26,742 nucleotides of DNA, from the IMG/VR virus record IMGVR_UViG_3300023174_004443, positions 1-26,742 of that record; one strand, written 5' to 3'. Every line of letters begins with the position of its first letter. Within the stretch, counting starts at the first letter, position 1. The stretch comes from a virus. The notes beneath the pieces are model-generated. The model worked only from the letters and a program-made list of their open reading frames with translations, had not been told where the DNA came from and did no database searches. This document shows positions 2 to 23,908 of this stretch, in pieces. Position numbers and translations under genes: made by a program.

Positions 2-3000
2 ATGTCTACTCGCGCCGCACGGAGGTCATCCCGAACAACGTCGGCCGCAACTGGTCCAGCATCGGGCCTTGCGTCGGAAGATAAATTTCCACAAGTTGAT
101 GCGGGTGACCTTGCGTCACGTTTGGCCAAACTTGAGGAGAGAAGGAAGCAACTTCAGGCAGAGAGGGAAAAGAACAAAAGTGCAACAGAGACTCTTGAAT
201 CTGCAATTAAAACGCTGGTTGAAGCAGACAGAGAGGCAGATCCTGAGCCTAAATCAACAGAAATTGATGAGTACACAGAAGACCTTAAAGATTTGGACGC
301 TGACAGGAGAAAAATCGCACGGAAGCCGATTGGCCTGCGCCCAACTGGAGAAGAGTTTCAAAAAAGAATTGCTGAACTCTCTGTGGCCACTGTTCCCACA
401 TACGACGAGACAACAGGGGAAGAGATAACCAGAGAAGTAGTCAATAAGAAAACAAAGAAAAAGACTAAAGAGGTGGTGCAGAGACCGCTACGTGATGATG
501 AAATCATGCAAATGCTTCAGGATGAGTTTGACGCAAGTCAGGAAGAAATTTCCGAAGGACTAAGAAGCGCTAGGGAACGAACCCAGAGGGCCCAAAACAT
601 CAGCGAGGCGCAACTTCTGGCTAAGACGTTGGTTGAGTACGCCAAACGCAAGATGTACCAAATTAGCGGGGCTGGCATTGATAAGAAAGAAGAAAAGACT
701 CTTCAGAAAACCATCGAGGGGATTATCAGGTCCGAGGGCGTAGGTGTATCGAAAGACGACATCGCCTTCCTTGAGAAATTTGGCGTTGCATCAGAAACCA
801 TAGACGCTGCCTCCGGAGATACTGAAATTCTGGAAAAGATTGGCTTTGGGCGAGAAAAGAAGGGAACGCCCGCCCGCCCAGGGGCTCAAAGGCCAGATGA
901 TGTAGAGAAGACTGGCAAGGTGCAGCAGTTGCTCCTTGACGCAGAGAAGGAGGCAATGGAGACCGGCCAGGATATAGGGGTAGTCCTGGCAAACATGCTC
1001 GCCGCCGCTGAGGATCGGCAGAGGAAAATAGAAGCCCAGATTGCTGCGGATCAGCAAGACATTGTAAAACTAAAAGAAATACAAGACGACAACACCTTGG
1101 CACAAGGCGGCGCTTACTTCCGCGCAATTGGGCTGCCAGAGGGAAGGATTGGCCGAACAGATCCGCTGTCGCGTGTTGCGGGAAGAAAGATTGACTCAGA
1201 TCAGCAAGAGGCAATCAATGAGCGGGCAAGGAGGATTGCTGCCAGATACCCAGGCGGCCTTGAAGCAATGCATGCGGATGTCCTAACGCTTAACCCAGAG
1301 TACGACGCAGCGACCGGGGAGAGCCCAAGGGGAATGGCCGGTGCGGAGCGAATTGAAGGAACCGTAACCCGAAGAGAAATTGCAGAGAACCCTATAGGCG
1401 GGTTGTTTAGGGTCCGTTCTCTGGTGCGGAATGCTGAGTCTGAGAGCGGTGCTCAGTTGTCCACGTCAACAATATCGCCAACGCAGGCCGGACCCGCACT
1501 TGAGTTCATGAAAGAACTGTTTGCAAGCCTAAAGATTGTCATGGCGGGAATGGCAGAAACTCTTTCTCAGGGCCGAGCAATAAAGCCAAGCGATGTGCAA
1601 GATCTCGGGGTAAACCTTTCTATCCTTGCCAATCTTTACGATCAGATACAGGGAATGGACCCCGGCCGCAACGAAGAACTAAAAAAGATTGTTGGCGACA
1701 TGAAGGCAAACTTTGCCGCCCTGGCAGAGGGAGAGGACATTGCCAAACTATTCTCACCCGGATTTGTCACAGAAAGATTGGGAAAATCCGCAGGACTTAG
1801 CAGGACAGAGAAAGAGGGTCTTGCCCTTGAGGTGGCTGGCATCGCAAGGGGCGTCAGCGCGGGCGGCGAAAGAGTCGTTGGCGGAATGCAGGCCTATTCA
1901 GAATCTAAGCAAAGGGCAACAACGGGCGTATATGGCGGCAGGGTGCCACGGGTTCCGTCCCCAGCAGACGCAGCGGAAGCCGCCGAGCAAATTAAGCAAC
2001 TTGCTGGAAAAGTTCAACTAGCAGAAGGCAGCGATAAGGAATCCCTAAAGGAGCAATTGATTGCGCTGATTGGCAATCAGATTTCTGAGGCTGCAATCAA
2101 CCCACAAGATCTGCTGAAGTTAGTCAAAGATCCTGAAATTCAAAAAGAGATCAGAGAAAAGTTTTCCCGAAGCATTGATGCATACAAGTTGCGAATGGAG
2201 CCCATGGGGGAGGAGGGATTGCAGCCTATTGGATATGAGGTGCAAGGCACCGGTGGCGCGCGCGGCGGCGGGGCAGGAAGAATTAAAGAGGGCACTAGAG
2301 AGGTCATTGATCCAGTTGGGCCAGAAGCAGCAGCCCAACTTGTTGAAAGAATCCTCTCCATTGAGGAAGTGGTGGCAAAGATTGCGGAAGATATTGATGC
2401 AATATTTTCAAAAAATGAAAGAGATGCAGACTCTTCCAAGCGAGAAGAGTCAAAACTTCTTATTGAAGAGCGATCCCGACAACTTGAGATTGCCGAAAAG
2501 CGCCTCAAGCAGGTAGAGGACAGACTCAGGCTGCAGGCGTTCCTTTCTGGCAGGGAGGCTCCGCCGCCAACATTTGGTACCGACCCGGGCTATAGCAGGC
2601 TGAAATCGCTTGGAAATGTTTCTGAGGAGATTCAAGAGCGCGGCGCACTTGCTCGGAACTTTATAATTCCAGCACAGCAGAGAATTTTTGAGACTTACAA
2701 AACTAAACCTGAGGTCGGCTCGCAAGAAGAAATCCTTTCAAAATTTACTAAAATTGAGAAAGTTGAAGACTTAAAACCATTTGGCGATGACGCAACCGCT
2801 GCTCTTGGGTTCCGATCGTTGCCAATTTCTTTGGTCAGAAGGCTGATCAGAGAGAACCCAGAACTTAAAAAGTTGGAAACTCCTAGCAACCCGATTGAAG
2901 GGGTCCCAAGCGGTGGAATTCTTAAGGTAAGTGAAGAAGCCGCACGTGCTGTGCTTGAAGCACTTGAAAAAGTCGGAGTAAGAATCTCTGTTGGAAGTTT

Positions 3001-6000
3001 TTCAAATCCTGAAGAACCTGATTCTCAAAGTCTAGTTTCTGTTATGCATATTGCAGAAAAATTGGCAGATGACAAGTTTGCCGCTTACGTTGCAACAGGA
3101 ATAGCAGAAAATGTTATTACGTCAAATACCGGCGGAAATGCCCTTCTGAACATTCAAACTCCAGAATTTAACTCTTACCCGAGTTTAGATGGAAAAGTTA
3201 AAGAAGACGCTGGCGGGCACATGCAATCGGCGGGGATTGTCCCAAGCGGCGTGGTTAGAAACATACAACTTGTAAGGAGAATGGCCACAGGCGATCCAAT
3301 GGAAAGGCCATCATATATCCGCAGGGCAGTTGCCCATGAGTACGGGCACGCGATTACGTTGCCATATAACGAGGACGAAGAATCAAAATCATACACACTG
3401 GGCAGGATCAAAGCGCGCGGAATTGGTGAAGACCAAGCAAGATCTGTATCTAAATACGGGGCAACTGACTATAGAGAACTGCTTGCTGAGTCTTACGCAA
3501 TTATCAATGGCTATACCCAGGATGAAGGCGAGGAAGATCTGGCCAATAGCGAGGGTTGGGCAGAAAGCCTGGTGCCGGCGCTTATGGGCGCTATCGAGGA
3601 CGCAAAAGAACTAACAAAAAAGCGCGCCAAGCGACTAGGCACCTATGCCAAAGGCGGTGTGTTCCGGACAAAACCTGCGCCAATGACCACCGGCGGCCTG
3701 CGCGGGCCCGCAGCGGGCCGAGGTGCAAGGGTAGTTGCCGATAGGGCCACTACTGATGATCTTTACGGCGATACGCTAGAAAACTTTGGTGCATCGTTTG
3801 CAATGCAAACGTCGCCGGAAGGGGCGCCAGTGGTTACCGGAAATACTCCGGGCCCAGGATTTAGCGTTGGCGGTCTGAACAAGCGTAACTTTAATCTTCT
3901 CCCATCCGACATGGTTCCAGAAGAGGCAGCCTCGGGAATGGGCGAGGAAGAAATAAAAGGAATTCAAGAGAGGAATAAGCAAAAGCGTGAACGGTTTAGG
4001 ATTGCAGTCCTGCAACTCATGCAGGAAAATGCCGCATTTATCAAGCGCGCGCTTGCCGAGGGCCGCGAGATCTATTTTGGGACATACTTTGATGAATCTG
4101 TCGGGAAAATTGCGCTTGATGTTACTGAGTTGATTCCATACGATCCAAACGATGCTGAGAGCGAGGCCAAAGCAAGGGCAAAAGCACTGGCAGATGCAAC
4201 GGTAAGGAATCAGCAGTCAGTAGCAAGAATTGAGCCAGTGGCCGGAAAGGGTCGCGGCACTGGCGCTGGCTTTGGCGTAGATTTTGGCAATCCAGATGCG
4301 TTCCCATCTACTGGAATCCCAGCGGGGGAAGACGCAATGGCCGGATATCGCGCATGGACCGGCAAGCGTTGGACCAGCAGCAACCTTCCCGACGCACCGG
4401 TAACTGGGCCAGGAGAGCCAGGGTCTCCCGCCAACTTCCCTGCCCCGAGCGACAACTTTGATTCCATTCAAAAAGATCTGGAAGAAACTCTTGCCAACGA
4501 CCCAGAAAGCGCCCTAGCAAAAGATAACCTTCGCATGCTGCTTGAGGCTCGTGGCATGGAGGCTGATGCAATCGCTCGTCGGGTTGAAGAAGTTGCCCGT
4601 GGCGCTGTCGCGCAACAGGCAGCCGTTGAGTCTGAGTCAAAGAAGTCTGACAAGGCAGAGGCGTCCGCAAAGGCCGCAGAGGACGACCTTGGCTTGTTTG
4701 AGGACTTCACCGACGAGGAAATGGGCGAGGAGTTCTACGGAGACGACGAGAGCGGGTCGTACGAAGTTCTACCCGAGGAGAAGGCTGCGCAGGGCGCGCG
4801 CAAGGCTGCGGCTGCTGAGCGAATCATTGCGGCTGGAGAGCAGGAGACTCAGGCTGTTGAAAATTCTGCAACCGCCTCAGAGTCGCGCGCGGCAAGCGTT
4901 CAGGTGGCGACTGACGCCGGATCTACAGGCTCCGGTACAGGGGCGGCCGCTGCCGCGACCACTGACTCAATCTCAAAGGTCCAAGAGATTGAAGCCGAGA
5001 TTGCTGCAATTGACGCGAAGCGAGCAGAGTTGCAGGAAAAGATTAGTGCAGCGTTTTCCGCTCGAAGGGAGGCCGCAGTATCCGCAAAAGATAAACTTCG
5101 GGCCGCTTTCGACGTCCTTATGCAGATGGAAAATGAAGAACTAGCAGATGAATTGGTTGCTATTGAACTAGATACAGACAGGGAAATGGCGCAGCGCGAG
5201 GCAAGGTTTAGGCGAACAAAGCCAGGAAGAAAGCGCACAAAAACTGGCGAATACGCAAACGAGTATGTACCCGAAGTTTATGGACCTGAATCAGAAGAAC
5301 ACAAGAGGTTAATTTCTGAAGGATTTAAGCCAGACGAGGATAACGCCTTTACCGAAAGGGACATGGTATTTAGTGAGAAGTCTGCACGGTTTAGGCACGC
5401 CCTTGGAGTTGAGAACTATGGCAATAATAAGAATCTTGCTTCGAAGGTTGGACTCCCTCCAGTCAATCTCCCGGGAGCAGACGCGCCACAGCAAACCATA
5501 GAAGAAATTCGTGAATATATAAAATTAAGGTCCGCTGAACAGCCGGAGCCCGGAGTGGGTGAGCCGCTTCCCGAAGATGTTGAGGCCGCCAGGCAGGCTC
5601 TTGTTGAGTTCCAAGCGGCAATCGCCCCGGTAACGGAAGAAATTGACTCGCTCGACGCCGAACTAACAACTCTCACCGGGGCACGTCAGGCGCTCCGGGC
5701 AGAGCAAGTGAATCTCACGCCAGTCAAGAGTGAGTCAGCGAATGATGAAGCCGAACGTAATAATAAAGATGTAATCCTACAGAAACAAATTATCCCAGAA
5801 CAACTTGTCCCAATCATTGATCTTCTTAATAAGACCCTTGCTATTGCAGACAGAACAATAGCAGAAAGAGGGCAAGATACATCTGGGATGACGGCAAAGG
5901 ATAAAGCACAATTTCTTGAAAGTGATCCAAGCGGTATCGGAAGAAAACTAGAGTTCTTAATAAGCGCAATAGAAATGGCAAGTGGCACCGAAGCGCCAAA

Positions 6001-9000
6001 ACAAGGCCAACTGAGATTCCCGGGAGCAGTGCTTCCATCTGATGTAAGAGGCACAACTCCAGACGCTCGAGTTAAGTCTGGGGCAAAACTCACTGGCATG
6101 TCCCCAGAAGAAGTCGCTGATGTTTCTGGTGTTCTGCAGCGCATTCAAGCGGCGCTACGAGGACTTGAGTCGCAGGCGGCAACGGGAGAAGTTGACCTTG
6201 AGGCTCTTGCAGCGTCATTGCAAAACGTTTCATCGGAAGCGCGTGAGACAGCATCATTCTTAACAAAAACAACAACATCCGATCAGCAAAAAATTGTTGC
6301 TGCCGGCAATGCGCCGGGCGGCGCAGGCGGAAGTAAGCCACCAACCGCCACTGGCGGCGGAATGCCGCCAAGCGATCCAGACAACGATTGGAGAAAGATT
6401 CGAGCGGTAGTCCCTGACACGGAAATGATTTCCCGAGGCCTGAAAGACCTTGCCGCCCTTCAGAATCGATTTAACGAACTGTCTCCTACAATTCTTCACG
6501 TTGGTGATGCCAACAAGGCATTCTCCAGGTCGCTGGACGAGTCAGCCAAGAAGTCTCAGCAAGCATCTGAGGCCATAGCAACACTTACCAATACCAACGT
6601 TGGCGCACTGCGCGCAATCAGGACGCAAGTTAGCCGCGCGGCAACGTTCCTTGTCCTGCAGCAACTGGGCAGGGAAATTGGTGGAGTCTTTGAGCACCTC
6701 CAGTCTGGTGTGTTCCAATTTAACCAAGTTCTTGAAAACACCACCGTGGGTTTCAACACGCTTTTTGCAAACACGCTGCAAGCCCGCGCGGCCGTTGGCA
6801 ATGCGCTTGTTCCAAAACTAAATGAGGCCGGTGTCCAAATTGGCTTCATGCGAGAGCAGTCGGTTAAGTTCTCTGACGCCATTAACTATACCAAGGGTGC
6901 AGCCACAAGCATGGTTGCTGAGATTAGGAATATTGCAAATATCACGCCGTTTAGGTTTAAGCCACTCGTAGAAGCCGCACTCAAGATGAAGGCGTTCGGG
7001 TTTGAGGCGACTGAAATTCCTGGGATGATCAACTCTATCTCCAACGCCGTTGCGGCACTCGGTGGCGAAGACGAGAAGATCGACCGCATTGCCTACGCGC
7101 TTGGGCAAATGAACTCTGCTGGTCGCGTCTATCAGAACGACATGATGCAGTTGGCAAACGCGGGTATTGCAGGATATCGAATGCTTTCAGAGAAGTTGCT
7201 GATGGATTTGACAGCAATGAAGAACCGCTCGCTTGGAATGCTAAAAGACGTCCCAGAAGAGACGGCAGCAGAGTTTGACAGGCTCCAGCAAATGCTCAAT
7301 AGCGCTTCGTTCAAGAAATCTTTCGGCAGCATCGATGAAATGATTCGCACCCTGGAAGATCCAAAGCGCGCTGAAGGGTTAATTAGAAACCTTGCAAAGC
7401 GCGGATTCCTGATTGGATCAACCGCTGCTCGTGCAATCACCGAAGGAATGGACAAGCAGTACCAGGGTTCTGCCGATCGACTTTCGAGGACAATGACCGG
7501 CGCACTTTCAACGATTGCAGATCTTTCTCAGAATTTCATGGCAACAGCCTTTGAGCCACTGTTTACATCTGTCCGAGACACAATTGTTGAGATTGGTCAG
7601 TTCATGCTCAACTCAAAAGAAATTACAAAGTTTGTTGATGGCGTTCGCACAAGAATGGTCGCATTCATGGGAACCCTGGCAGATTTTGGGCCAGCACTTC
7701 AGTCTGCTGGGCAAATATTCCTCAATATCTTTGTTGGCGGTATTGGATCTGCGCTCGATAAGGGCACACAGTTTGGCGCAGTCATTACTGGAATTGTTCA
7801 AAACCTAGGACCAGGGCTAAAACTTATTGGCGACATTCTCACAAATGATGTTGGCAAAGGTCTCGTCGTTGCAACTTTGGCATTTAGCCTATTCTCAAAA
7901 GCAATCACCGCGAACCCATTGATTGCAACAATAACACTATTGATCGCTGCAATTAGCGGAATTGCAAAAGCAATAGAGGAAGATACCCTTGGCGTTGGGA
8001 CATTTGTAAAAATGTTTGTTCCTTCCATCGAGCAACTATTTAAAGTAATCGGCGATGCGTTCGGAACTATTATGAAGGAAATTTCCGAGGGTGGCCTTGC
8101 CGGATTTATTGCCGGTCTCTCACTGGCGATTGATGTGCTCATGCCATTCCTTACCGTTTTCTTGGCAACGTTGTCGGTAATCCTCAAGATAATTACACCG
8201 TTCGCCAAGCCGCTCGGCATCGTCATTGGCCTGTTCCTTGCGCTAAAGACCGCACTGATGGCATACGACCTGGCTGGCTCACTTATGGGCAAGGTTATGA
8301 ATGGAATCGGTGGCGCGTGGACAAAAGTCAATGGCGCTATTGATCAGCAAATATCTAAGGTAAAGCAAACCGCCGCTGCGTATGACGAACTAAAGAAAGC
8401 AAAGATTGAGGCAGAGGACTACAAGACAAACGACAGGGGCCAATATCTTGACGATAAGGGTCGCGTTACCAAAGACAAGAGCAAGGCCGCGCTTAACTGG
8501 GGACCTGGAGAAAAAGTAAATTCTTACGGGATGACCGAAAGAAAGGGCCGCGCAGCGCAGGCCATGCTTGAGGGCAGGGGCTTTGTTCCTGGGCTGCTCG
8601 CAATGGAGCGCGGCAAGCAGCAGGCAATGGACTACGGCCAAAACATGATGGGCGTCCGCCCAGAATTTGGTAAAGGCTTCCACCTGTCCCACGGCGACAG
8701 CGCCCTGCCGCACACCGAAGCGGTTATCACAAATCGAGGGATTGAGGGAACCTACGGATACCTCGACCAGGCCGAGTCACGGCTTACGGCGTTTAGGGAC
8801 GCGAACCAAGGCAAGACCCTTGTTGGCGAAGACCTAGAGAAACTAAGGGACCTTGAAGAGGCCGCAAAACTGAAGCAGGAATATTCAAAGGCTGGCGTCA
8901 TGAGGTTTGCCGGTCTTGACGAGGGCAAGTCCGTCACCGGAAAAGCGGATATAAACAAGAACGCCGGTGCCTACTCAATGGACAACATGCTTTCGGCCAT

Positions 9001-12000
9001 CACCATCCAGAAGCAAATTAACTGGATTATCAATACCTCCTACAAGCAGATTGAGGAAGCCGGTGCTGAAATTGCTGCAATCAATAAAGAGTTGGATTTG
9101 CTCAAAAAGCAGATGGAATCTGGAGAGATTACCACTGAGGATTATGAAACAAAAAAGCAAAGTGCCCTTGATCGAATTCAGCAAGTAAAGGCAAAGCCAG
9201 TCAACCAGAAGGCCGTTGCGGTTATCGGCGGACTGATTGAGGGCCAGGGTGGCGACGCAACCGACCTGCTTGACAAGGCTGCCGCTGGGAGGCCTATCAA
9301 TATTCCGAAGGGAAGCGCAGAGGCTATCAAGAAACTCCCAGACAAGACCCGCAACATCATTATGGCAAGGGTCCTTGAGGCGCAGACCAAGGGCGATGCG
9401 TTCCTAACTGACAAGGAACTCAACGATATCGTGACCGGAGCCCTTGGCGATGCAAGGGGCAAGGCGGCACTCAAAGCAATGACCACCGGCATTTCTGGAA
9501 AGATTGCCCAGTCGCTTACCAACCTGTACAACAAAATAGCCGCCGGTGTTCCAAAGCAGTTCAAGACCATTGAGCGCGGCGGCGGAACAACCGGCTTGAA
9601 AGAAATCGACAGCAGGAATGGCGATTATTACTACGTCAACGAAGAGACGGGCATGCTCAGCAACAGAAGGGTTGGCAAGAAGGAACTTGCTTCCCGCGAG
9701 CGAATAAAGAGCCTTCCTGGTGCTGGGATGCTTGGCAAGATTGGCGGAGCGGTTGGGATTGCTGGCCTTGCCGGCGGACTTGCCACGGGGGCCTCTCGCC
9801 TTGCCGGACAGATGGCTCCAATTCTTTCTGCCCCAATCATTGGGCCACTCATGGAATTTCTTCCAAAAGAAATGACTAACGTTCTAAAGCAGAAGGCTGG
9901 ACCATTCCAGGCCATGGCTGCTGGAATCGGAACGGCTGCGGGCGCAGCGCTTGGCCAGGCGCTCATCCCAATCCCTGGAGTTGGCGCGGCACTTGGCGGA
10001 ATGATTGGCGGAGCCCTTGCAGAATTTGTTGGCAACGCCGTTGACAAGGCAATTGCTGGCTCCGAAGCGGCAATGGAAAAGAAGAAGCAGGTCATGGAGG
10101 AAGCAACGTTCCTGGGCTTCTCAACCGAGCAGTCAAAGACAATTGGTGAGGCAGTTAACTCGCTAGAGGGAGATTCTGGATCAATTCCATTTATTGTTGG
10201 CGACCCGTCAGAAGCATACTCGGCACCAGACTCTAGGAAAAATCTTGCAGAAAGATATCAAACAGAGTTCGGTGCAGATGTAGTAAAAGAGCGAAACGAC
10301 GCCCTAACGGCCTACATGACAAGCGACGTCGGTAAGTTTACAAATACTATAACGGCGGGTTTGCAAAATCTTTTCATTACAACTGGAATACTTGGTGGCG
10401 TAACGGGGATCGGCGCAGGAAAAGAGGGCGATGCGCGAGTTAAGGCATACGCGGCATTCAGGGAAAAGCAGGCAGAGTTTATGGGTACCGCGCTGCCGCT
10501 TCAAGACCTTATGGAAGTTTATGGTCAGGATGCAATGTTTACAAAGCAGAGGCTGTACGACTTTAAGATAAGACACGGCGAAGAAATGAAGTTGATTGAT
10601 GGAAAGTTGGCCCGAAACGAAGAATTGTCAATAAGCGAAAAAAGATTAAAAGACGAATTTGAAAGGCTAACAGCAGCGGCGGCTGGTTCACCAATGGGCG
10701 TGATGGGAACAATTACCGACACAAAGGTCATGAGCCCAACAATGTTTGCAAAACTGATTGACCAGGGCGGCCGAGGAAAGGTTACAGCGGAAGAGGCAAA
10801 GGCGTCTGAGGGCAAATTGAAGGAAGGGGATTTCAAGGAGGGATTCAGCAAATTTGAGTCGCTTCTTGCAACTGCGGATATTCAATTTATGACTGAAGGC
10901 GCTGGGTTTGGAACAAAGACCGCAGATGCTCTTTCTGCAGCGGGTTTTGACTATTCAAAAATAACCGCAGAAACAACTGACAAAGAAGTTCTTGCTATGG
11001 TTAAAGAGGCGCTTAAGCCGCTCATTCAGGCGCGAGTTCGTGCAAAAGAGTTGACGCCAAAGGTTGACCTAAGCATGACGCGCATCGAGATGATGGAGAC
11101 ATTTGGCGGCGAGGCAGGCTACAAACTCTTTGATAAATACGCTGGCCAACGAGACGTCTACCAGAAAAAGCAAAAAGAGTTTGACTCGCTTGGTGGAGAG
11201 GCCAGGCTTTTGTTCCTTCAGTCGATTGCAGACCAGTCTATCCTTGGATCAAACTTCCTCTCGCAGCCGCTACCGGGAAGTAGGCCAGTTGCCCCAGCAA
11301 CCCCGCCGCCAGGTTTGCCATTTACTGGAAGAACCGGCGCGGGCGGTCCGGTCATTCCGCGCGGAGACTACGTCATTCCGCAAGTGGATCTGGGCGAGGG
11401 CACCGGTTTTAGCCAGACGGCAGGCCCGATGGGCCAGTATGTAAACACACTACTTACAACCGCACAATCAGTTGAACTAGAAAATCTAAAAAATAAACAA
11501 AAAGAACTTACGGATGCACGATATGAAACGCTTGAAGTAGATATGAAGTTGCGCACGTCTTTGGCTGGCGCAACCGAAGAGGACCGAGCAAAAGGAGTTG
11601 CTGCGGAGAAGGCGTTTGTTACATTTAAAGAAGAGAATGGAAAGAAACTTCTTGCCGCTGTGCAGGCTGGCAAGAATGCAAGCAGGGAGCAATTGGATCT
11701 CCTTAAGGAAGAGGCAAGACTTCGAGAGGGGTACTTAACAACAGAAAGCACAAAACTAAACATTGGCGATGCGCTCCAGGCCGCCGAGGCCGCCGGCCTT
11801 AACATTTCTTATAAGGACCTGGCAAACAATCAAGCACTGGTTGAGTTGCTCCTTGCAAAGCAGAACATTATTGACAAACTTGGGGGCGCTTCTGCGGCCC
11901 AAGTTGAATCACGTGGAGCAGAAATTATTGCGGAAGACTTTATTACAAAGGCCTCGATCAAGCAACTTGCCATTGAAGAGGAGAAAGCAAAAATTGACAT

Positions 12001-14494
12001 TCTTAGGGCAAGAATTGATGCGGCCAGACTGTCCGGAGATGCTCAGCACGTAGGCGTTCTTGAAAAGGAATTAGCGCAAATGGAAGGGGCGGGCGGGAAA
12101 CTTGTCGGACTGCAGAAAGAATATGACAACCTGAGCGCCTCGGCGCAAAAGTGGCTTGATAAGGCGGCGGCGGCAAACCCACGCAAATTGCTCCAGAAAG
12201 ACATTGACGCCATTAAGAAAATGATTGCAAAAAACCCAGGTTCAATTCTTGGGGGCGACGGCGGAGCGAAAGACTCAAAGACACTGCAGAAAAACATTGA
12301 CCTGCTGAACAAGATGGCGTCCGTTGCCCAGAAGGCATATGACCGGATGCGCAAGGAGCAGCAGCGCACGCACGACGATTACATCAAGCAACTTGACGAG
12401 CAGGAGAAGCGGATTAATGAGCGCTACCAGCAGCGCTCAGACATCCAGACGGAAGAAAACCTCCAGGCACAACTCCAGATTGCAGGGCTTCAGATGCGAT
12501 CTGCCTCTGCCGATCCGCTTGAGGCTGCCAAGTCATTCTACGACGCCAAGCAGGCATTGGAGCAGTTCTACATTGATCAGCAACGCGACGCAGAACTTAA
12601 GGTTATTACCGATGAGAAGGAGCGATACGAGAAACAATTTGGCGACTCTTCAACGGCCTCCCAAGCAATCTACGACGCAGCGATGCAAAGGCTGAACAGC
12701 AGATTTGAGTTTGCCCAACAGGTGCTCAACGGCGACGAGAAGATGGCTGGCAAGATGAACGATGCCCTTCGAATGACGATGTTTGGTGGCGACATTGAGG
12801 GAATGGTCAATATTGATGGTGAGGTTTCTAGCGCGGCAAATACTGCATTCAATGAGTACAAGAAGGGCGGCGGGGCAAACTACAAAAAGTATGCAGCAAT
12901 ATCAAAGGCAAATCGAACCAAGGCTCAACAGGCTGTTGTCACTAAATACGAAAGCCTTCTTGCTGCAGCAAGAAAGGAGTCAGCCGTCAACGCCATGCTC
13001 GATGCCGTATATGGGGTAACTGGCGAGCAGGACATCACAATGACAACTAACGCAGAGCAGGATCTTGCAAAGTTTGAGTCAGAGAACAGAGACGCTATTG
13101 CAGCCGCAATTGCAGCAAACGAAAATATGACTACAGATCAGGAGGAATTGCTTGGAAACCTTGCTGAATTGCGCGCTGCCGCAGAGGCTGCTCAAAAAGA
13201 CGCACTGCTTGGCGCCCTTGGCAGCATTGGTCAGGGGGTCTTGTACAACGACAATAAGGCATTCTCAGCCTCTGGTGGCGGATTTACTGGCGGCATTGCT
13301 GGGCTCAAGTATGGCGGAAAAGCAATGACCCAAGCGCAAATGAAAGTTTACCGAGGATCAACGGAAGAAAGCGGGCTTGCGGCGACATTCCTTAACGAGG
13401 CTATCATGGGGCAAATGAGATACACGGATCAAAACGGAAAAGAATATGCGGGCGCGGGGAATATTCTAGCCTATTTGACTGGCGTTATTAACAACATGGG
13501 CGGCTCGCCAGAGGGAGTTACAAAACTTAATGCAGAGCAGGACGCGCTCTACAAGTACCTTAGAACGCTTGTATCCTCAAAGAATACCTTTACTGACGCT
13601 CAGAAAATTGCAATCCTTGCCCAGCGAACGCTTGAGCAGGGGCTCAACGACTTTGAGCAGTCAACTGGTGTCGATATCAACATTGCCAACCTTGCAGATG
13701 CAGATGTCACAGAAAAGCAGTTTACAGATTACTTCACTGCCCTAGGCAAGAACTTTGAGGACAACGCCGCACGAGACGCCGCAATCCAGAAGATGCGCGA
13801 CGTTCTCAGGGACACTTACGGACAGGCACTGCTTTCGGTTGATGTTGAACAATACGCAAAGTTTGCAGACTCAAGCGATAATCGAATTGGTACATTGAGT
13901 GGCGTTGCAAAGAGCCTTAAGGACGTCATGGATCAGATTGACGGGATCATGTCTAGCCCGAACAAGATGACCAGCCTAGACAAGTTGTTGTTTGGTGCCG
14001 ACTTTGATCCGAACAACCTCTCCGGAACCGGTCCAGTCAGCAACCTAAAGTTCGGAAAGACGCAAATCGACGCCGTTACTACTGCAGTAACCGCAACGCG
14101 AGATGCCTTTGAGAGCAGCATGAATAGCATCAAGTCATACGCCTCAGAGTTGAGCGGACCGCTGGGAGCATTTAATCAGCAGTCGGTCACGGGCGCAGAT
14201 GCCTTGACCGCAGCCATGGGCCAGACCGCATCCTCATTCTCCCTTGCCACAGGAAAGGTTAATGAGTATGCTACTGCCTTGGCCGCTGCGGCTGCCGCGC
14301 GCACAAGCCTCGGTGTTAATGCAACTCTTGCCACGGGCCTGGCAACCAGTGCAACGCCAACTGGCACCGTAACCGCTGGCGCTAACAACACCTTCAACAT
14401 CACCGTCAGCAACGCAAGCGGTATGGATGCCCAGCAATTGGCCGCAGAACTTGCTAGACTGATTGCACTTCAAGCAGGAAGCAGTGTTAAGTAA
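2..14494 (+). CDS. Giant tail tape-measure protein with an N-terminal zincin domain
   Basis: Tape-measure proteins set tail length and help deliver DNA through the host membrane. This frame has 4,830 codons. Residues 1-130 are charged coiled coil. Residues about 970-1190 carry a zinc-peptidase signature (H1112, E1113, H1116, Y1152, E1159, E1163). A small domain lies near 1335-1410, followed by an acidic Ala/Ser-rich region near 1500-1680. A Gly/Pro hinge just before W2130 leads into the tape-measure core (about 2190-2500, with TPFRF at 2315). Hydrophobic helices follow near 2620-2656 and 2697-2760, glycine zippers near 3240-3283 and 3306-3347, a Pro-rich linker near 3755-3800, and long coiled coils. 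The C-terminal NNTFNITVSNASG segment resembles the end of other tape measures. I found no cysteine on reading the whole protein. The ATG lies one base inside the window, so its ribosome site cannot be checked and the gene could begin further upstream. The family call is firm; the role of the N-terminal third is inferred. Confidence 0.94.
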   Translation: MSTRAARRSSRTTSAATGPASGLASEDKFPQVDAGDLASRLAKLEERRKQLQAEREKNKSATETLESAIKTLVEADREADPEPKSTEIDEYTEDLKDLDADRRKIARKPIGLRPTGEEFQKRIAELSVATVPTYDETTGEEITREVVNKKTKKKTKEVVQRPLRDDEIMQMLQDEFDASQEEISEGLRSARERTQRAQNISEAQLLAKTLVEYAKRKMYQISGAGIDKKEEKTLQKTIEGIIRSEGVGVSKDDIAFLEKFGVASETIDAASGDTEILEKIGFGREKKGTPARPGAQRPDDVEKTGKVQQLLLDAEKEAMETGQDIGVVLANMLAAAEDRQRKIEAQIAADQQDIVKLKEIQDDNTLAQGGAYFRAIGLPEGRIGRTDPLSRVAGRKIDSDQQEAINERARRIAARYPGGLEAMHADVLTLNPEYDAATGESPRGMAGAERIEGTVTRREIAENPIGGLFRVRSLVRNAESESGAQLSTSTISPTQAGPALEFMKELFASLKIVMAGMAETLSQGRAIKPSDVQDLGVNLSILANLYDQIQGMDPGRNEELKKIVGDMKANFAALAEGEDIAKLFSPGFVTERLGKSAGLSRTEKEGLALEVAGIARGVSAGGERVVGGMQAYSESKQRATTGVYGGRVPRVPSPADAAEAAEQIKQLAGKVQLAEGSDKESLKEQLIALIGNQISEAAINPQDLLKLVKDPEIQKEIREKFSRSIDAYKLRMEPMGEEGLQPIGYEVQGTGGARGGGAGRIKEGTREVIDPVGPEAAAQLVERILSIEEVVAKIAEDIDAIFSKNERDADSSKREESKLLIEERSRQLEIAEKRLKQVEDRLRLQAFLSGREAPPPTFGTDPGYSRLKSLGNVSEEIQERGALARNFIIPAQQRIFETYKTKPEVGSQEEILSKFTKIEKVEDLKPFGDDATAALGFRSLPISLVRRLIRENPELKKLETPSNPIEGVPSGGILKVSEEAARAVLEALEKVGVRISVGSFSNPEEPDSQSLVSVMHIAEKLADDKFAAYVATGIAENVITSNTGGNALLNIQTPEFNSYPSLDGKVKEDAGGHMQSAGIVPSGVVRNIQLVRRMATGDPMERPSYIRRAVAHEYGHAITLPYNEDEESKSYTLGRIKARGIGEDQARSVSKYGATDYRELLAESYAIINGYTQDEGEEDLANSEGWAESLVPALMGAIEDAKELTKKRAKRLGTYAKGGVFRTKPAPMTTGGLRGPAAGRGARVVADRATTDDLYGDTLENFGASFAMQTSPEGAPVVTGNTPGPGFSVGGLNKRNFNLLPSDMVPEEAASGMGEEEIKGIQERNKQKRERFRIAVLQLMQENAAFIKRALAEGREIYFGTYFDESVGKIALDVTELIPYDPNDAESEAKARAKALADATVRNQQSVARIEPVAGKGRGTGAGFGVDFGNPDAFPSTGIPAGEDAMAGYRAWTGKRWTSSNLPDAPVTGPGEPGSPANFPAPSDNFDSIQKDLEETLANDPESALAKDNLRMLLEARGMEADAIARRVEEVARGAVAQQAAVESESKKSDKAEASAKAAEDDLGLFEDFTDEEMGEEFYGDDESGSYEVLPEEKAAQGARKAAAAERIIAAGEQETQAVENSATASESRAASVQVATDAGSTGSGTGAAAAATTDSISKVQEIEAEIAAIDAKRAELQEKISAAFSARREAAVSAKDKLRAAFDVLMQMENEELADELVAIELDTDREMAQREARFRRTKPGRKRTKTGEYANEYVPEVYGPESEEHKRLISEGFKPDEDNAFTERDMVFSEKSARFRHALGVENYGNNKNLASKVGLPPVNLPGADAPQQTIEEIREYIKLRSAEQPEPGVGEPLPEDVEAARQALVEFQAAIAPVTEEIDSLDAELTTLTGARQALRAEQVNLTPVKSESANDEAERNNKDVILQKQIIPEQLVPIIDLLNKTLAIADRTIAERGQDTSGMTAKDKAQFLESDPSGIGRKLEFLISAIEMASGTEAPKQGQLRFPGAVLPSDVRGTTPDARVKSGAKLTGMSPEEVADVSGVLQRIQAALRGLESQAATGEVDLEALAASLQNVSSEARETASFLTKTTTSDQQKIVAAGNAPGGAGGSKPPTATGGGMPPSDPDNDWRKIRAVVPDTEMISRGLKDLAALQNRFNELSPTILHVGDANKAFSRSLDESAKKSQQASEAIATLTNTNVGALRAIRTQVSRAATFLVLQQLGREIGGVFEHLQSGVFQFNQVLENTTVGFNTLFANTLQARAAVGNALVPKLNEAGVQIGFMREQSVKFSDAINYTKGAATSMVAEIRNIANITPFRFKPLVEAALKMKAFGFEATEIPGMINSISNAVAALGGEDEKIDRIAYALGQMNSAGRVYQNDMMQLANAGIAGYRMLSEKLLMDLTAMKNRSLGMLKDVPEETAAEFDRLQQMLNSASFKKSFGSIDEMIRTLEDPKRAEGLIRNLAKRGFLIGSTAARAITEGMDKQYQGSADRLSRTMTGALSTIADLSQNFMATAFEPLFTSVRDTIVEIGQFMLNSKEITKFVDGVRTRMVAFMGTLADFGPALQSAGQIFLNIFVGGIGSALDKGTQFGAVITGIVQNLGPGLKLIGDILTNDVGKGLVVATLAFSLFSKAITANPLIATITLLIAAISGIAKAIEEDTLGVGTFVKMFVPSIEQLFKVIGDAFGTIMKEISEGGLAGFIAGLSLAIDVLMPFLTVFLATLSVILKIITPFAKPLGIVIGLFLALKTALMAYDLAGSLMGKVMNGIGGAWTKVNGAIDQQISKVKQTAAAYDELKKAKIEAEDYKTNDRGQYLDDKGRVTKDKSKAALNWGPGEKVNSYGMTERKGRAAQAMLEGRGFVPGLLAMERGKQQAMDYGQNMMGVRPEFGKGFHLSHGDSALPHTEAVITNRGIEGTYGYLDQAESRLTAFRDANQGKTLVGEDLEKLRDLEEAAKLKQEYSKAGVMRFAGLDEGKSVTGKADINKNAGAYSMDNMLSAITIQKQINWIINTSYKQIEEAGAEIAAINKELDLLKKQMESGEITTEDYETKKQSALDRIQQVKAKPVNQKAVAVIGGLIEGQGGDATDLLDKAAAGRPINIPKGSAEAIKKLPDKTRNIIMARVLEAQTKGDAFLTDKELNDIVTGALGDARGKAALKAMTTGISGKIAQSLTNLYNKIAAGVPKQFKTIERGGGTTGLKEIDSRNGDYYYVNEETGMLSNRRVGKKELASRERIKSLPGAGMLGKIGGAVGIAGLAGGLATGASRLAGQMAPILSAPIIGPLMEFLPKEMTNVLKQKAGPFQAMAAGIGTAAGAALGQALIPIPGVGAALGGMIGGALAEFVGNAVDKAIAGSEAAMEKKKQVMEEATFLGFSTEQSKTIGEAVNSLEGDSGSIPFIVGDPSEAYSAPDSRKNLAERYQTEFGADVVKERNDALTAYMTSDVGKFTNTITAGLQNLFITTGILGGVTGIGAGKEGDARVKAYAAFREKQAEFMGTALPLQDLMEVYGQDAMFTKQRLYDFKIRHGEEMKLIDGKLARNEELSISEKRLKDEFERLTAAAAGSPMGVMGTITDTKVMSPTMFAKLIDQGGRGKVTAEEAKASEGKLKEGDFKEGFSKFESLLATADIQFMTEGAGFGTKTADALSAAGFDYSKITAETTDKEVLAMVKEALKPLIQARVRAKELTPKVDLSMTRIEMMETFGGEAGYKLFDKYAGQRDVYQKKQKEFDSLGGEARLLFLQSIADQSILGSNFLSQPLPGSRPVAPATPPPGLPFTGRTGAGGPVIPRGDYVIPQVDLGEGTGFSQTAGPMGQYVNTLLTTAQSVELENLKNKQKELTDARYETLEVDMKLRTSLAGATEEDRAKGVAAEKAFVTFKEENGKKLLAAVQAGKNASREQLDLLKEEARLREGYLTTESTKLNIGDALQAAEAAGLNISYKDLANNQALVELLLAKQNIIDKLGGASAAQVESRGAEIIAEDFITKASIKQLAIEEEKAKIDILRARIDAARLSGDAQHVGVLEKELAQMEGAGGKLVGLQKEYDNLSASAQKWLDKAAAANPRKLLQKDIDAIKKMIAKNPGSILGGDGGAKDSKTLQKNIDLLNKMASVAQKAYDRMRKEQQRTHDDYIKQLDEQEKRINERYQQRSDIQTEENLQAQLQIAGLQMRSASADPLEAAKSFYDAKQALEQFYIDQQRDAELKVITDEKERYEKQFGDSSTASQAIYDAAMQRLNSRFEFAQQVLNGDEKMAGKMNDALRMTMFGGDIEGMVNIDGEVSSAANTAFNEYKKGGGANYKKYAAISKANRTKAQQAVVTKYESLLAAARKESAVNAMLDAVYGVTGEQDITMTTNAEQDLAKFESENRDAIAAAIAANENMTTDQEELLGNLAELRAAAEAAQKDALLGALGSIGQGVLYNDNKAFSASGGGFTGGIAGLKYGGKAMTQAQMKVYRGSTEESGLAATFLNEAIMGQMRYTDQNGKEYAGAGNILAYLTGVINNMGGSPEGVTKLNAEQDALYKYLRTLVSSKNTFTDAQKIAILAQRTLEQGLNDFEQSTGVDINIANLADADVTEKQFTDYFTALGKNFEDNAARDAAIQKMRDVLRDTYGQALLSVDVEQYAKFADSSDNRIGTLSGVAKSLKDVMDQIDGIMSSPNKMTSLDKLLFGADFDPNNLSGTGPVSNLKFGKTQIDAVTTAVTATRDAFESSMNSIKSYASELSGPLGAFNQQSVTGADALTAAMGQTASSFSLATGKVNEYATALAAAAAARTSLGVNATLATGLATSATPTGTVTAGANNTFNITVSNASGMDAQQLAAELARLIALQAGSSVK
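2900..3560 (+). other. Anthrax-lethal-factor-type zincin domain inside the tape-measure protein
   Basis: The encoded segment (about residues 967-1187) contains RAVAHEYGHAI, an HExxH zinc motif with H1112, E1113 and H1116. It is followed 43 residues later by YGATDYRELLAES. In anthrax lethal factor the equivalent elements, as I recall them, are HEFGH, then SYGRTNEAEFFAEAF, where Y728 and E735 are functional and lie 7 residues apart. Here Y1152 and E1159 are also 7 apart, and the second glutamate, E1163, is conserved too. All expected zinc and catalytic residues are present, so the domain is probably active. Its substrate is unknown. Confidence 0.8.
6560..7510 (+). other. Tape-measure core domain
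   Basis: Residues about 2187-2503 match the N-terminal tape-measure domain of siphophages. The pattern is an alpha-helical run with ITPFRF, then MKAFGFEATEIPGMINSISN, a GRVYQNDMMQLANAGI block, and a helix leading to repeated hydrophobic segments. This is what identifies the polypeptide as a tape measure. In most phages this domain sits near the N-terminus; here about 2,130 residues precede it. Confidence 0.88.
7850..8285 (+). other. Membrane-helix region of the tape-measure protein
   Basis: Two long hydrophobic stretches lie at about residues 2620-2656 and 2697-2760. Together they could form three to five membrane-spanning helices. Tape measures of siphophages often carry such helices and are thought to form a channel in the cytoplasmic membrane during DNA entry. 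The channel role is inferred from the family. Confidence 0.7.
9719..10045 (+). other. Two glycine-zipper stretches in the tape-measure protein
   Basis: Residues about 3240-3283 and 3306-3347 are rich in small residues with recurring GxxxG and AxxxG spacing, separated by a short Pro-containing segment. Glycine-zipper helices pack tightly in membranes. The pair is a second candidate membrane-inserting region, well separated from the first one. Confidence 0.6.
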
Positions 14495-22199: not shown

Positions 22200-22976
22200 A
22201 TGAAGTACAAGGTTAAGAGTCAGTTGGACCACGAAGAGAAGGGCGGCATTCTTGACGACTGCGGCCCATCAAGTATAGCCGCATGCGTGTCATGGGCGTT
22301 TAAGTACGCTCCGGGCAAGGATTTCTCTGCTGCGGACGGCATCAAGGCTAAGTTTGAGGCCACCGGCCAGGTGGACAAGCAGGGCGTAAGCGACAATGGC
22401 TCAACTCTTGCTCAGTTGCTTCTTACGGCAAGAAAACTTGGCGCCGAAGCGCGCTGGGCAAAAGATTGGAACGATGTCATCAACTCCGCTAAGGCCGGTG
22501 CGGCTTTGGGCGTGTGGGTTGAGCAGCCGGCTGGTTACCCTAAGGGTCTGGAAGTTTCCGCATGGCATGCAAAGTGGGAGCGCTGGTGGTGGGTCAAGCA
22601 AAAGCAACCTACCCGCACGTATGGCCACATGACTTCAGCCGTGTACGACCCAATTGACGGCTGGCAGTGGGCGTGCCCAACGCGATCCGGCAAGGGTGCT
22701 GAGCAGTTTGGCGTAAAGATTGACGAGAAGATTCTTCTCACTCTTGCTGACTCAAAGCGCGTGTCCAAGAAGGACAACGCCCCGGCGTTTAAGCACATCA
22801 TTATCATCACAGCGCCAAAGGGCTGGGTTGCTCCAGCGCCAGTGGCTCAGGCAGTAGCACCAGTTGCACCGGCACCAGTTGCTGCGGCTCCAGTTGCTCC
22901 AGCACCGCAGCCGGCGGCACCGGCAGCATCAGTACCGTGCTCACGCTGTGGCGGCACGGGCGTAGTAAAGCAGTAG
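22200..22976 (+). CDS. C39-like cysteine peptidase, probable endolysin
   Basis: This 258-residue protein begins with a papain-like C39 pattern. Q8 would form the oxyanion hole, C21 in DDCGPSS is the probable nucleophile, H143 in TYGHMTSAVYD the general base, and D150 in DPIDGW the third member. An Ala/Pro/Val-rich linker (about residues 209-246) leads to a C-terminal C-x2-C-x-G-x-G motif (C247, C250), which is half of a DnaJ-type zinc site. I see no signal peptide. Its place between the tail-tip gene and a holin-like gene suggests cell-wall peptide cleavage at lysis. A virion or host-directed peptidase is the alternative. AAAGGTAGG precedes the ATG. The fold call is good; the wall substrate is inferred. 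Confidence 0.75.
   Translation: MKYKVKSQLDHEEKGGILDDCGPSSIAACVSWAFKYAPGKDFSAADGIKAKFEATGQVDKQGVSDNGSTLAQLLLTARKLGAEARWAKDWNDVINSAKAGAALGVWVEQPAGYPKGLEVSAWHAKWERWWWVKQKQPTRTYGHMTSAVYDPIDGWQWACPTRSGKGAEQFGVKIDEKILLTLADSKRVSKKDNAPAFKHIIIITAPKGWVAPAPVAQAVAPVAPAPVAAAPVAPAPQPAAPAASVPCSRCGGTGVVKQ
22825..22940 (+). repeat. Ala/Pro-rich linker repeat in the peptidase gene
   Basis: Short units based on CCAGTTGC and GCACCAGTTGC recur and encode alternating APV/APA residues. The segment joins the peptidase domain to the small CxxCxGxG end and probably acts as an extended spacer. Such tracts vary in length between relatives. Confidence 0.7.
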
Positions 22977-22985
22977 GAGAACAGA

Positions 22986-23393
22986 ATGTTTGCAAAGATT
23001 AAGTGGATTTTTGATAACACTGGTATAGACGAGGCGCTTCTTGAAGCGTTTCGCGTTGGTCTTGCAACCGGTATTGCCGTGATGCTTGCCACCGGTGCTC
23101 CAATCCTTGACATGTCCGCGCAGGACTTCCGAACCGTTGCCTCGGGTGCCATTGCGGCAACCCTCCAGGTCATTGTTCGTGCCCTCAATCCAGAGGATAC
23201 GAAGTTTGGCGTTGGCAAGGCAAAGATTGCCCGCGAAGAGCAGGCAAGCACCGCGCACATTGCCGGTTCTGCCATTGATACCGATGGCGACGGCATTGCC
23301 GACCAGTTGGCTGGCAGCCTTGCCGGCGAGCAGGGTTGGATTGATGTTGACGGTGACGGCATCAATGACCTTGAAGAGGAGCCAAAGGCGTAA
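22986..23393 (+). CDS. Holin-like membrane protein with two DxDxDG calcium-loop motifs
   Basis: This 135-residue protein starts 9 bases after the peptidase stop, with AGGAG overlapping that stop codon. Residues about 19-41 and 47-68 form two moderately hydrophobic helices, a layout seen in small phage holins. Holins open the cytoplasmic membrane so that the endolysin reaches the wall. The C-terminal third is soluble and carries DTDGDGIAD (98-106) and DVDGDGIND (120-128) followed by LEEE. These are EF-hand or thrombospondin-3-like loops that usually bind calcium. That tail is odd for a holin and could regulate pore opening or have another job. The holin call rests on size, helices and position rather than a diagnostic motif. 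Confidence 0.68.
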   Translation: MFAKIKWIFDNTGIDEALLEAFRVGLATGIAVMLATGAPILDMSAQDFRTVASGAIAATLQVIVRALNPEDTKFGVGKAKIAREEQASTAHIAGSAIDTDGDGIADQLAGSLAGEQGWIDVDGDGINDLEEEPKA

Positions 23394-23395
23394 TC

Positions 23396-23908
23396 GTGGC
23401 GAAAGCCGCTAGTGATCGCCCCGATGTCTCGGTAGACTGGGTAGAAATTGACCAGGTTACCAATCATCCCGATAACCCTCGGGATGGAGACGTTGGGGCG
23501 ATTATTACTTCTATTAGCCAGAACGGCTGGTACGGTGTGCTTATTGCACAGAAATCAACTAACTTTGTGCTGGTCGGGAATCATCGACTCATGGCTGTTC
23601 GTCAACTTGGTTGGAAGCAAGTTCCTGTAATTTTCCTAGATGTTGATGACCGACGGGCACGCAACATTATGCTTGCGGACAACAGGGTTTCAGACAAAGC
23701 GGACTACAACGAAGACTCCCTTGCTGCGCTTCTGTCAGCAGCAGCGGCAGATGGAGACCTTTTGGCAACAGGCTACGACCAAGAGGAAGTGGACGCGCTT
23801 ATCGCCTCATCAATGGATACTGGCCCGCTAGACTCAGAGAAGATAGATAAGAAGTGCCCGCACTGCGGAAAGTCACTCAGTGGATCGGCTCGGAGTCGTC
23901 CTCGATAA
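23396..23908 (+). CDS. ParB-like nuclease-domain protein with a C-terminal CPHC motif
   Basis: The gene starts with GTG 2 bases after the holin-like stop, with AAAGG 7 bases upstream. The 170-residue product has the ParB/Srx N-terminal pattern: NHPDNPRDGDV, then SISQNGWYG, a GNHR motif (usually GHRR or GNHR in the fold), LGWKQVPVIFLDV and the ADNRVSD block. Phages carry many stand-alone ParB-like proteins, some nucleases and some linked to DNA modification, so the exact role is open. C154-P-H-C157 near the end is only half of a zinc ribbon, and the second Cys pair is missing. The last 32 bases overlap the convergent reverse gene. The domain call is solid; the function is unknown. Confidence 0.84.
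   Translation: MAKAASDRPDVSVDWVEIDQVTNHPDNPRDGDVGAIITSISQNGWYGVLIAQKSTNFVLVGNHRLMAVRQLGWKQVPVIFLDVDDRRARNIMLADNRVSDKADYNEDSLAALLSAAAADGDLLATGYDQEEVDALIASSMDTGPLDSEKIDKKCPHCGKSLSGSARSRPR

Follow-up and report, generated by a model that had tools for sequence, protein, structure and literature searches.

The window analysed here is an entire viral record of 26,742 bases (IMG/VR record IMGVR_UViG_3300023174_004443). An open reading frame (ORF) at positions 22986 to 23393 (stop codon included; plus strand, as are all features of this gene and of its partner given below) encodes a holin-like protein of 135 amino acids, in which a two-helix membrane hairpin is followed by a tail with calcium-type loops. 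The AlphaFold2 model (mean pLDDT 67.9) predicts helices at residues 2 to 12, 14 to 36, 45 to 67, and 77 to 93. The second (23025 to 23093) and third (23118 to 23186) would form the hairpin and span the membrane, which agrees with the two-helix membrane protein of the initial annotation; their hydropathy is only moderate, with best 19-residue values of 1.48 and 1.22, respectively. Residues 94 to 135 are modeled with low confidence and have no predicted helix, and residues 93 to 135 form an acidic tail with 12 Asp/Glu and only 1 Lys/Arg. No Pfam or NCBIfam model reached its cut-off for the 135-residue protein, the best matches being subthreshold calcium-repeat families, and PHROG gave no match to the full-length protein. 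Matches to Aeromonas phage proteins (E about 0.04), whose genes are 1065 bases long and lie between those for capsid and RNA polymerase, were taken as chance. Directly after the hairpin gene, positions 23396 to 23908 encode a ParB-like protein with a C-terminal CPHC (PHROG 723, E 1.4e-34). Elsewhere in the window, positions 2 to 14494 are a single ORF of 4830 amino acids, probably an unusually long tape measure protein, and TerL resembles that of phages of many hosts, with every match below 60% identity (255 records).

The gene upstream of the hairpin gene (22200 to 22976) encodes a protein of 258 amino acids that is likely the endolysin, a C39-like peptidase with a predicted papain fold. This assignment comes from the model of a fused homologue, L026 (first row of alignment A2), in which most of the N-terminal domain is confident and the linker and hairpin are of low confidence; Foldseek matched it to the C39-like peptidase 3erv (E 5.6e-5) and also to phytochelatin synthase and staphopains. 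The catalytic Cys (22260 to 22262) and His (22626 to 22628) are invariant in 25/25 aligned members. In C39-like peptidases, the third catalytic residue is Asp or Asn; here, this position is Cys in 23 of the 25 members, including the window (codon 159, 22674 to 22676), the other two, L031 and L032, having Asp. Pfam Peptidase_C39_2 matched 3/25 members (best E 0.027), the window peptidase itself having no match to this model at E up to 1, and a search of the lysin-like protein against named phages gave a single match with an E of 0.3. In each of 10 longer records (30 to 91 kb), one homologue was detected. The C terminus of the protein consists of a Pro-Ala linker and the motif CxxCGGTG, whose CSRC (22938 to 22949) is a possible half zinc site. 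C39-like domains have precedents in lysins, as passages of PMC3314691 relate domain N5 of mycobacteriophage endolysins to a Bacillus anthracis C39-like peptidase and passages of PMC10868165 describe a protease C39 domain encoded by the lysin A gene of Gordonia phage Culver.

Two calcium-loop motifs and an acidic run after the second had been described for the tail, and all three are present. Loop 1, DTDGDGIAD, comprises residues 98 to 106 (23277 to 23303); the second motif, DVDGDGIND, comprises residues 120 to 128 (23343 to 23369) and is followed directly by LEEEPKA. The complete 12-residue loop 2, DVDGDGINDLEE (residues 120 to 131, 23343 to 23378), is of the EF type with Glu at position 12, so that its end at 23378 slightly corrects the earlier extent. 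The two loops are not equivalent: EF position 12 of loop 1 is Ala in the window, and in 51 distinct sequences it is Ala in 48, Thr in 2, and Glu in 1. Lacking the acidic residue, loop 1 thus departs from the textbook EF loop. Apart from the window, only nine close relatives (L001 to L009) have loop 2. Closer inspection of calcium-binding families gave scores below cut-off throughout, with 8.6 bits for EF-hand_5 (cut-off 25.9), 13.2 bits for bacterial TSP3 (TSP3_bac; gathering cut-off 25), and 13.4 bits for Excalibur (cut-off 22), as well as one Dockerin_1 match (E 0.16) in 1/26 members; the low-confidence model of the tail has no helix-loop-helix. The Excalibur domain pattern, DxDxDGxxCE, includes a cysteine, and the window protein has no Cys at all.

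Could such motifs arise by chance in an acidic tail? When the protein's own residues were shuffled 200,000 times, at least one D.[DN].DG appeared in 1.3% and at least two in 0.012% of the whole-protein shuffles; with shuffling confined to residues 84 to 135, the values were 2.2% and 0.039%. Among six-frame ORFs of at least 60 amino acids from the window and the related 58-kb and 30-kb contigs (scanned in three and two pieces, respectively), the extended pattern D.[DN].DG..[DNSTE] was found solely in the hairpin gene and its orthologue. Together with the selection on the loop described below, the shuffles rule out a chance motif.

Loop 1 is under strong purifying selection and is the most constrained part of the protein. 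D98, D102, and D106 are each present in 51 of 51 distinct tail-bearing sequences, and position 100 is Asp in 49 and Asn in 2; this is the pattern required of a metal loop. In 33 distinct genes, a set that overlaps with these sequences, GAT and GAC are both used at positions 98, 100, 102, and 106, and G101 and G103 are invariant (33/33). Across these 33 loop-bearing genes, dN/dS was 0.18 for residues 1 to 67, 0.157 for residues 68 to 93, 0.100 for residues 94 to 116, and 0.011 for loop 1, values that are pairwise sums and hence not independent, with dS near saturation. Furthermore, the nine-codon windows starting at residues 96 and 98 had the lowest and fifth-lowest pN of 105 windows in the 51 sequences, with pS values of 0.74 and 0.80, compared to 0.62 for residues 12 to 67 and 0.58 for residues 68 to 93. 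Loop 1 is followed by a conserved stretch, QLAGSLAGE (residues 107 to 115, 23304 to 23330), in which G110 is found in 51/51 and E115 in 50/51 sequences and L108, A109, and L112 are each found in 33/33 genes. For residues 117 to 135 of the ten two-loop sequences, pN/pS was 0.059. Of 50 distinct tail ORFs, 49 have 20 to 47% Asp/Glu in their last 15 residues. Judged by these sequence features, the tail probably binds metal.

Scanning IMG/VR identified 33 relatives of the hairpin protein, and a profile added one more. Peptidase and hairpin are encoded by two genes in 27 of these 34 relatives and by one ORF of 376 to 397 amino acids in 7, and a C39-like gene lies upstream of the hairpin or is fused to it in 34/34 loci first compared. 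A profile of the upstream protein found 471 relatives, the best 80 of which were kept; including these, 91 distinct contigs comprise 46 fused and 45 split forms, shares that pertain to this selection. Since the peptidase adjoins the hairpin in every one of the 34 loci and is fused to it in 46/91 contigs, a role of the hairpin in a lysis cassette is likely, and the placement in a lysis block made by the initial annotation can be kept. The fused ORFs, with the peptidase first and the membrane domain last, include L026:4122-5288, L028:4092-5282, L030:4125-5288, L031:4155-5282, L032:4152-5282, L033:562-1740, and L037:4116-5282, among others. In L066, L070, and L079, the order is reversed and a hairpin gene without loop precedes the lysin gene (computed for L066 and L079; L070 carries identical proteins). 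A profile of the tail alone found 68 IMG/VR contigs, 9 of them with two loops; in 67, the tail is borne by this hairpin family and the same C39-like peptidase is present, as a separate ORF throughout, and the 68th is cut at the contig end. None of 98 pattern matches in bacterial genome contigs was confirmed as a relative, and the tail alone had no match among named phages. The lysin-domain tree places 31 of its 32 loop-bearing rows in one group (support, 98/99), with L008 unresolved, and the loop may have arisen once; the tree has a midpoint root and unsettled bootstrap values and gives no proof that the fused form is ancestral.

The distribution of the loop fits the main rival to our reading, in which the tail would be constitutively metal bound and would dock the separate lysin or another partner, so that docking would take the place of the covalent connection in the fused form and the metal would be structural and not a signal. 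A D.[DN].DG loop is present in 0/46 fused contigs and in 39/45 split contigs (30 with one loop and 9 with two), in the same selection with the best 80 of 471 lysin relatives, and the QLAGSLAGE-like stretch past loop 1 could be the contact. However, five of the 45 split contigs (L066, L070, L079, L109, and L110) have no loop, L024 being cut before the loop position. A pairing of metal tags, the CxxC of the lysin with the loop of the hairpin, at first held in 38/39 loop-bearing contigs, but CxxC is present in only 48 of the 67 tail-bearing loci and absent from 19, and a strict tag pair was thus rejected. We regard such an adaptor function of the tail as unlikely.

Is the hairpin itself a holin? 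The initial annotation had called it holin-like, which is supported by the predicted hairpin, by its position, by the fusion to the lysin in relatives, and by the names of its structural neighbors; weak hydrophobicity, the absence of a family match at threshold, and the other candidates nearby in most relatives speak against it. The three best BFVD matches are all named "Holin," two at E < 0.001 and the third at 0.033. In the best of them, 133 columns align at 60% identity (E 3.9e-7) with an rmsd of 21.7, and the match therefore owes more to sequence than to shape. Searches of Pfam and PHROG gave no convincing holin family; holin names came up only as PF23987 (E 2.1) and phrog_26796 (E 0.12), each in one member of alignment A5. 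A kinship to r1t-type holins was considered: "Holin, r1t-type" appeared in BFVD at an E of 1.1 only, the r1t Pfam model was absent among the Pfam matches, and hhalign against nine r1t-type sequences gave a probability of 5.5% (P 0.007), the register being sensible and the comparison not significant. A membrane function of the protein in lysis is probable.

Near the lysin gene, relatives have further small hydrophobic genes that may be holin candidates as well, judged by sequence: A, of about 57 amino acids, and B, of about 55 to 67 amino acids with a coil and a hydrophobic stretch. A contains TGPLRW and B is XhlA-like by eye; the two are found at L128:3905-4093 and L128:2713-2877 and upstream of many fused lysins. 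One or both are present in 37/38 fused, 16/21 one-loop split, 4/4 no-loop split, and 0/9 two-loop split loci, counted over distinct testable loci (a further five lie too close to an end, and neither gene is present in the truncated L024) with models seeded from the same loci in which both were sought. Small membrane genes thus stand beside the lysin in most relatives, and the hairpin there need not be the pore former. In an alternative reading, the holin would be A or B, and the hairpin would serve as an anchor, co-holin, or antiholin with a tail that has another role, possibly outside the membrane. The tethering of the hairpin to the lysin in the fused form would be in line with this, as would its hydropathy of 1.2 to 1.5, which is below that of A (about 2). 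On the other hand, searches for A and B came up empty in the window, in 9/9 distinct two-loop loci, and in the 58-kb L004 contig, so that in the group of the window the hairpin is the sole holin candidate detected beside the lysin. The 58-kb contig has an unrelated coil-plus-hydrophobic ORF (L126:16339-16626). We consider a hairpin that is not the pore former rather improbable, even less likely than a docking tail; outside the group of the window, the hairpin may partner A or B. An acidic cytoplasmic tail that merely delays or tunes triggering electrostatically, with no specific metal site, would suit the acidic last 15 residues, the charged tails common on holin-like proteins, and the lysis-recovery mutants of F1 phages altered in acidic residues just after TMD2 (both from passages of PMC9671378 and PMC13056207), but is very unlikely, as charge alone would allow Glu for the invariant Asp at 98, 102, and 106 and would not fix G101, G103, and G110.

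On which side of the membrane does the tail reside? In the fused relatives, a soluble peptidase domain of ~200 residues precedes the hairpin and has no signal sequence obvious by eye. Followed by two helices, such a domain would place the N terminus inside and the C terminus inside as well. The charges point the same way, with a mean of 5.1 K/R in residues 65 to 93 versus 1.0 in the connecting loop (residues 42 to 49); the N-terminal segment (K/R, 2.4; D/E, 3.7) by itself is of no help for an inside location. We therefore think it fairly likely that the tail is on the cytoplasmic side before triggering. Free calcium is low in the bacterial cytoplasm and higher outside. External calcium would reach a cytoplasmic tail only once the membrane leaks, and the earlier proposal of pore timing that responds to calcium or to membrane collapse must be divided: the response to collapse fits a cytoplasmic tail, and timing set by external calcium does not fit the predicted N-in/C-in topology.

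Taken together, our analysis favors, with a probability of roughly 45%, a model in which the hairpin is a holin or co-holin whose cytoplasmic DxDxDG tail takes up Ca2+ at the first leak and thereby aids opening or lysin release. In these uncultured phages, the gene would be the membrane half of a lysin/membrane protein pair, and the short N-in/C-in hairpin would act for the upstream C39-like endolysin. In the branch of the window, the two are separate genes, and the hairpin would bear its acidic C-terminal tail around one (here, two) DxDxDG loops. In the intact cell, the tail would lie in the largely calcium-free cytoplasm; with the first membrane leak it would bind Ca2+, fold, and lose much of its charge, and the folded tail would favor commitment of the hairpins to the open state or release of the lysin. 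That calcium influx is the working signal is doubtful, and it is improbable that the tail is a full calcium-triggered lysis switch, in which calcium from the leak folds and neutralizes the tails and drives cooperative opening by positive feedback. If true, the calcium switch would have arisen in the branch with separate peptidase and hairpin genes. The fused relatives manage without the tail, which counts against an essential role; the tail is thus not essential to the work of the hairpin. What determines the time of holin firing is a long-standing question, for which a conserved metal loop would offer a concrete trigger chemistry, and the fused and split relatives provide a natural comparison of tethered and free lysins. 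The matches listed in open-licence literature include no calcium-loop holin, and the word "calcium" was absent from the holin papers checked.

For phages of Gordonia and Mycobacterium, passages of PMC9671378 and PMC13056207 describe holin-like proteins that have two helices, an N-in/C-in topology, and a charged tail. The hairpin differs in that it has no holin-family match at threshold and that many relatives carry it joined to the lysin in one polypeptide. It shares with phage 21 S68, mycobacteriophage D29 gp11, and Girr LysF1a, as described in these passages, its size, the two (here, predicted) helices, the lysin neighbor, and a charged C-terminal part, and adds to these the conserved DxDxDG loop. 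With r1t-type holins it has a similar register, that is, Glu/Arg before helix 1 and an aspartate-aromatic pair before helix 2, the profile comparison being not significant. Like domain N5 of mycobacteriophage endolysins, the partner peptidase has a predicted C39-like fold and the same best structural relative in B. anthracis, and the protease C39 domain of lysin A, as in Gordonia phage Culver, is a further counterpart; the partner differs in having Cys at the third catalytic position in most members and a hairpin fused or adjacent to it. A natural holin-endolysin fusion of the TpeE family is reported from Clostridium sporogenes in passages of PMC9527704; both systems use one polypeptide, with the holin N-terminal there and with the peptidase N-terminal and the hairpin C-terminal here. 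The loop sequence DTDGDGI.D, finally, is common to thrombospondin type 3 and bacterial TSP3 repeats (OmpA family protein, PDB 5wtl, E 0.035), and the CglD and MtsD models of NCBIfam (E 0.001 to 0.003) have a TSP3-like loop sequence in common with the tail; in contrast to TSP3 repeats, only one or two loops are present here, and these are placed in the tail of a membrane protein.
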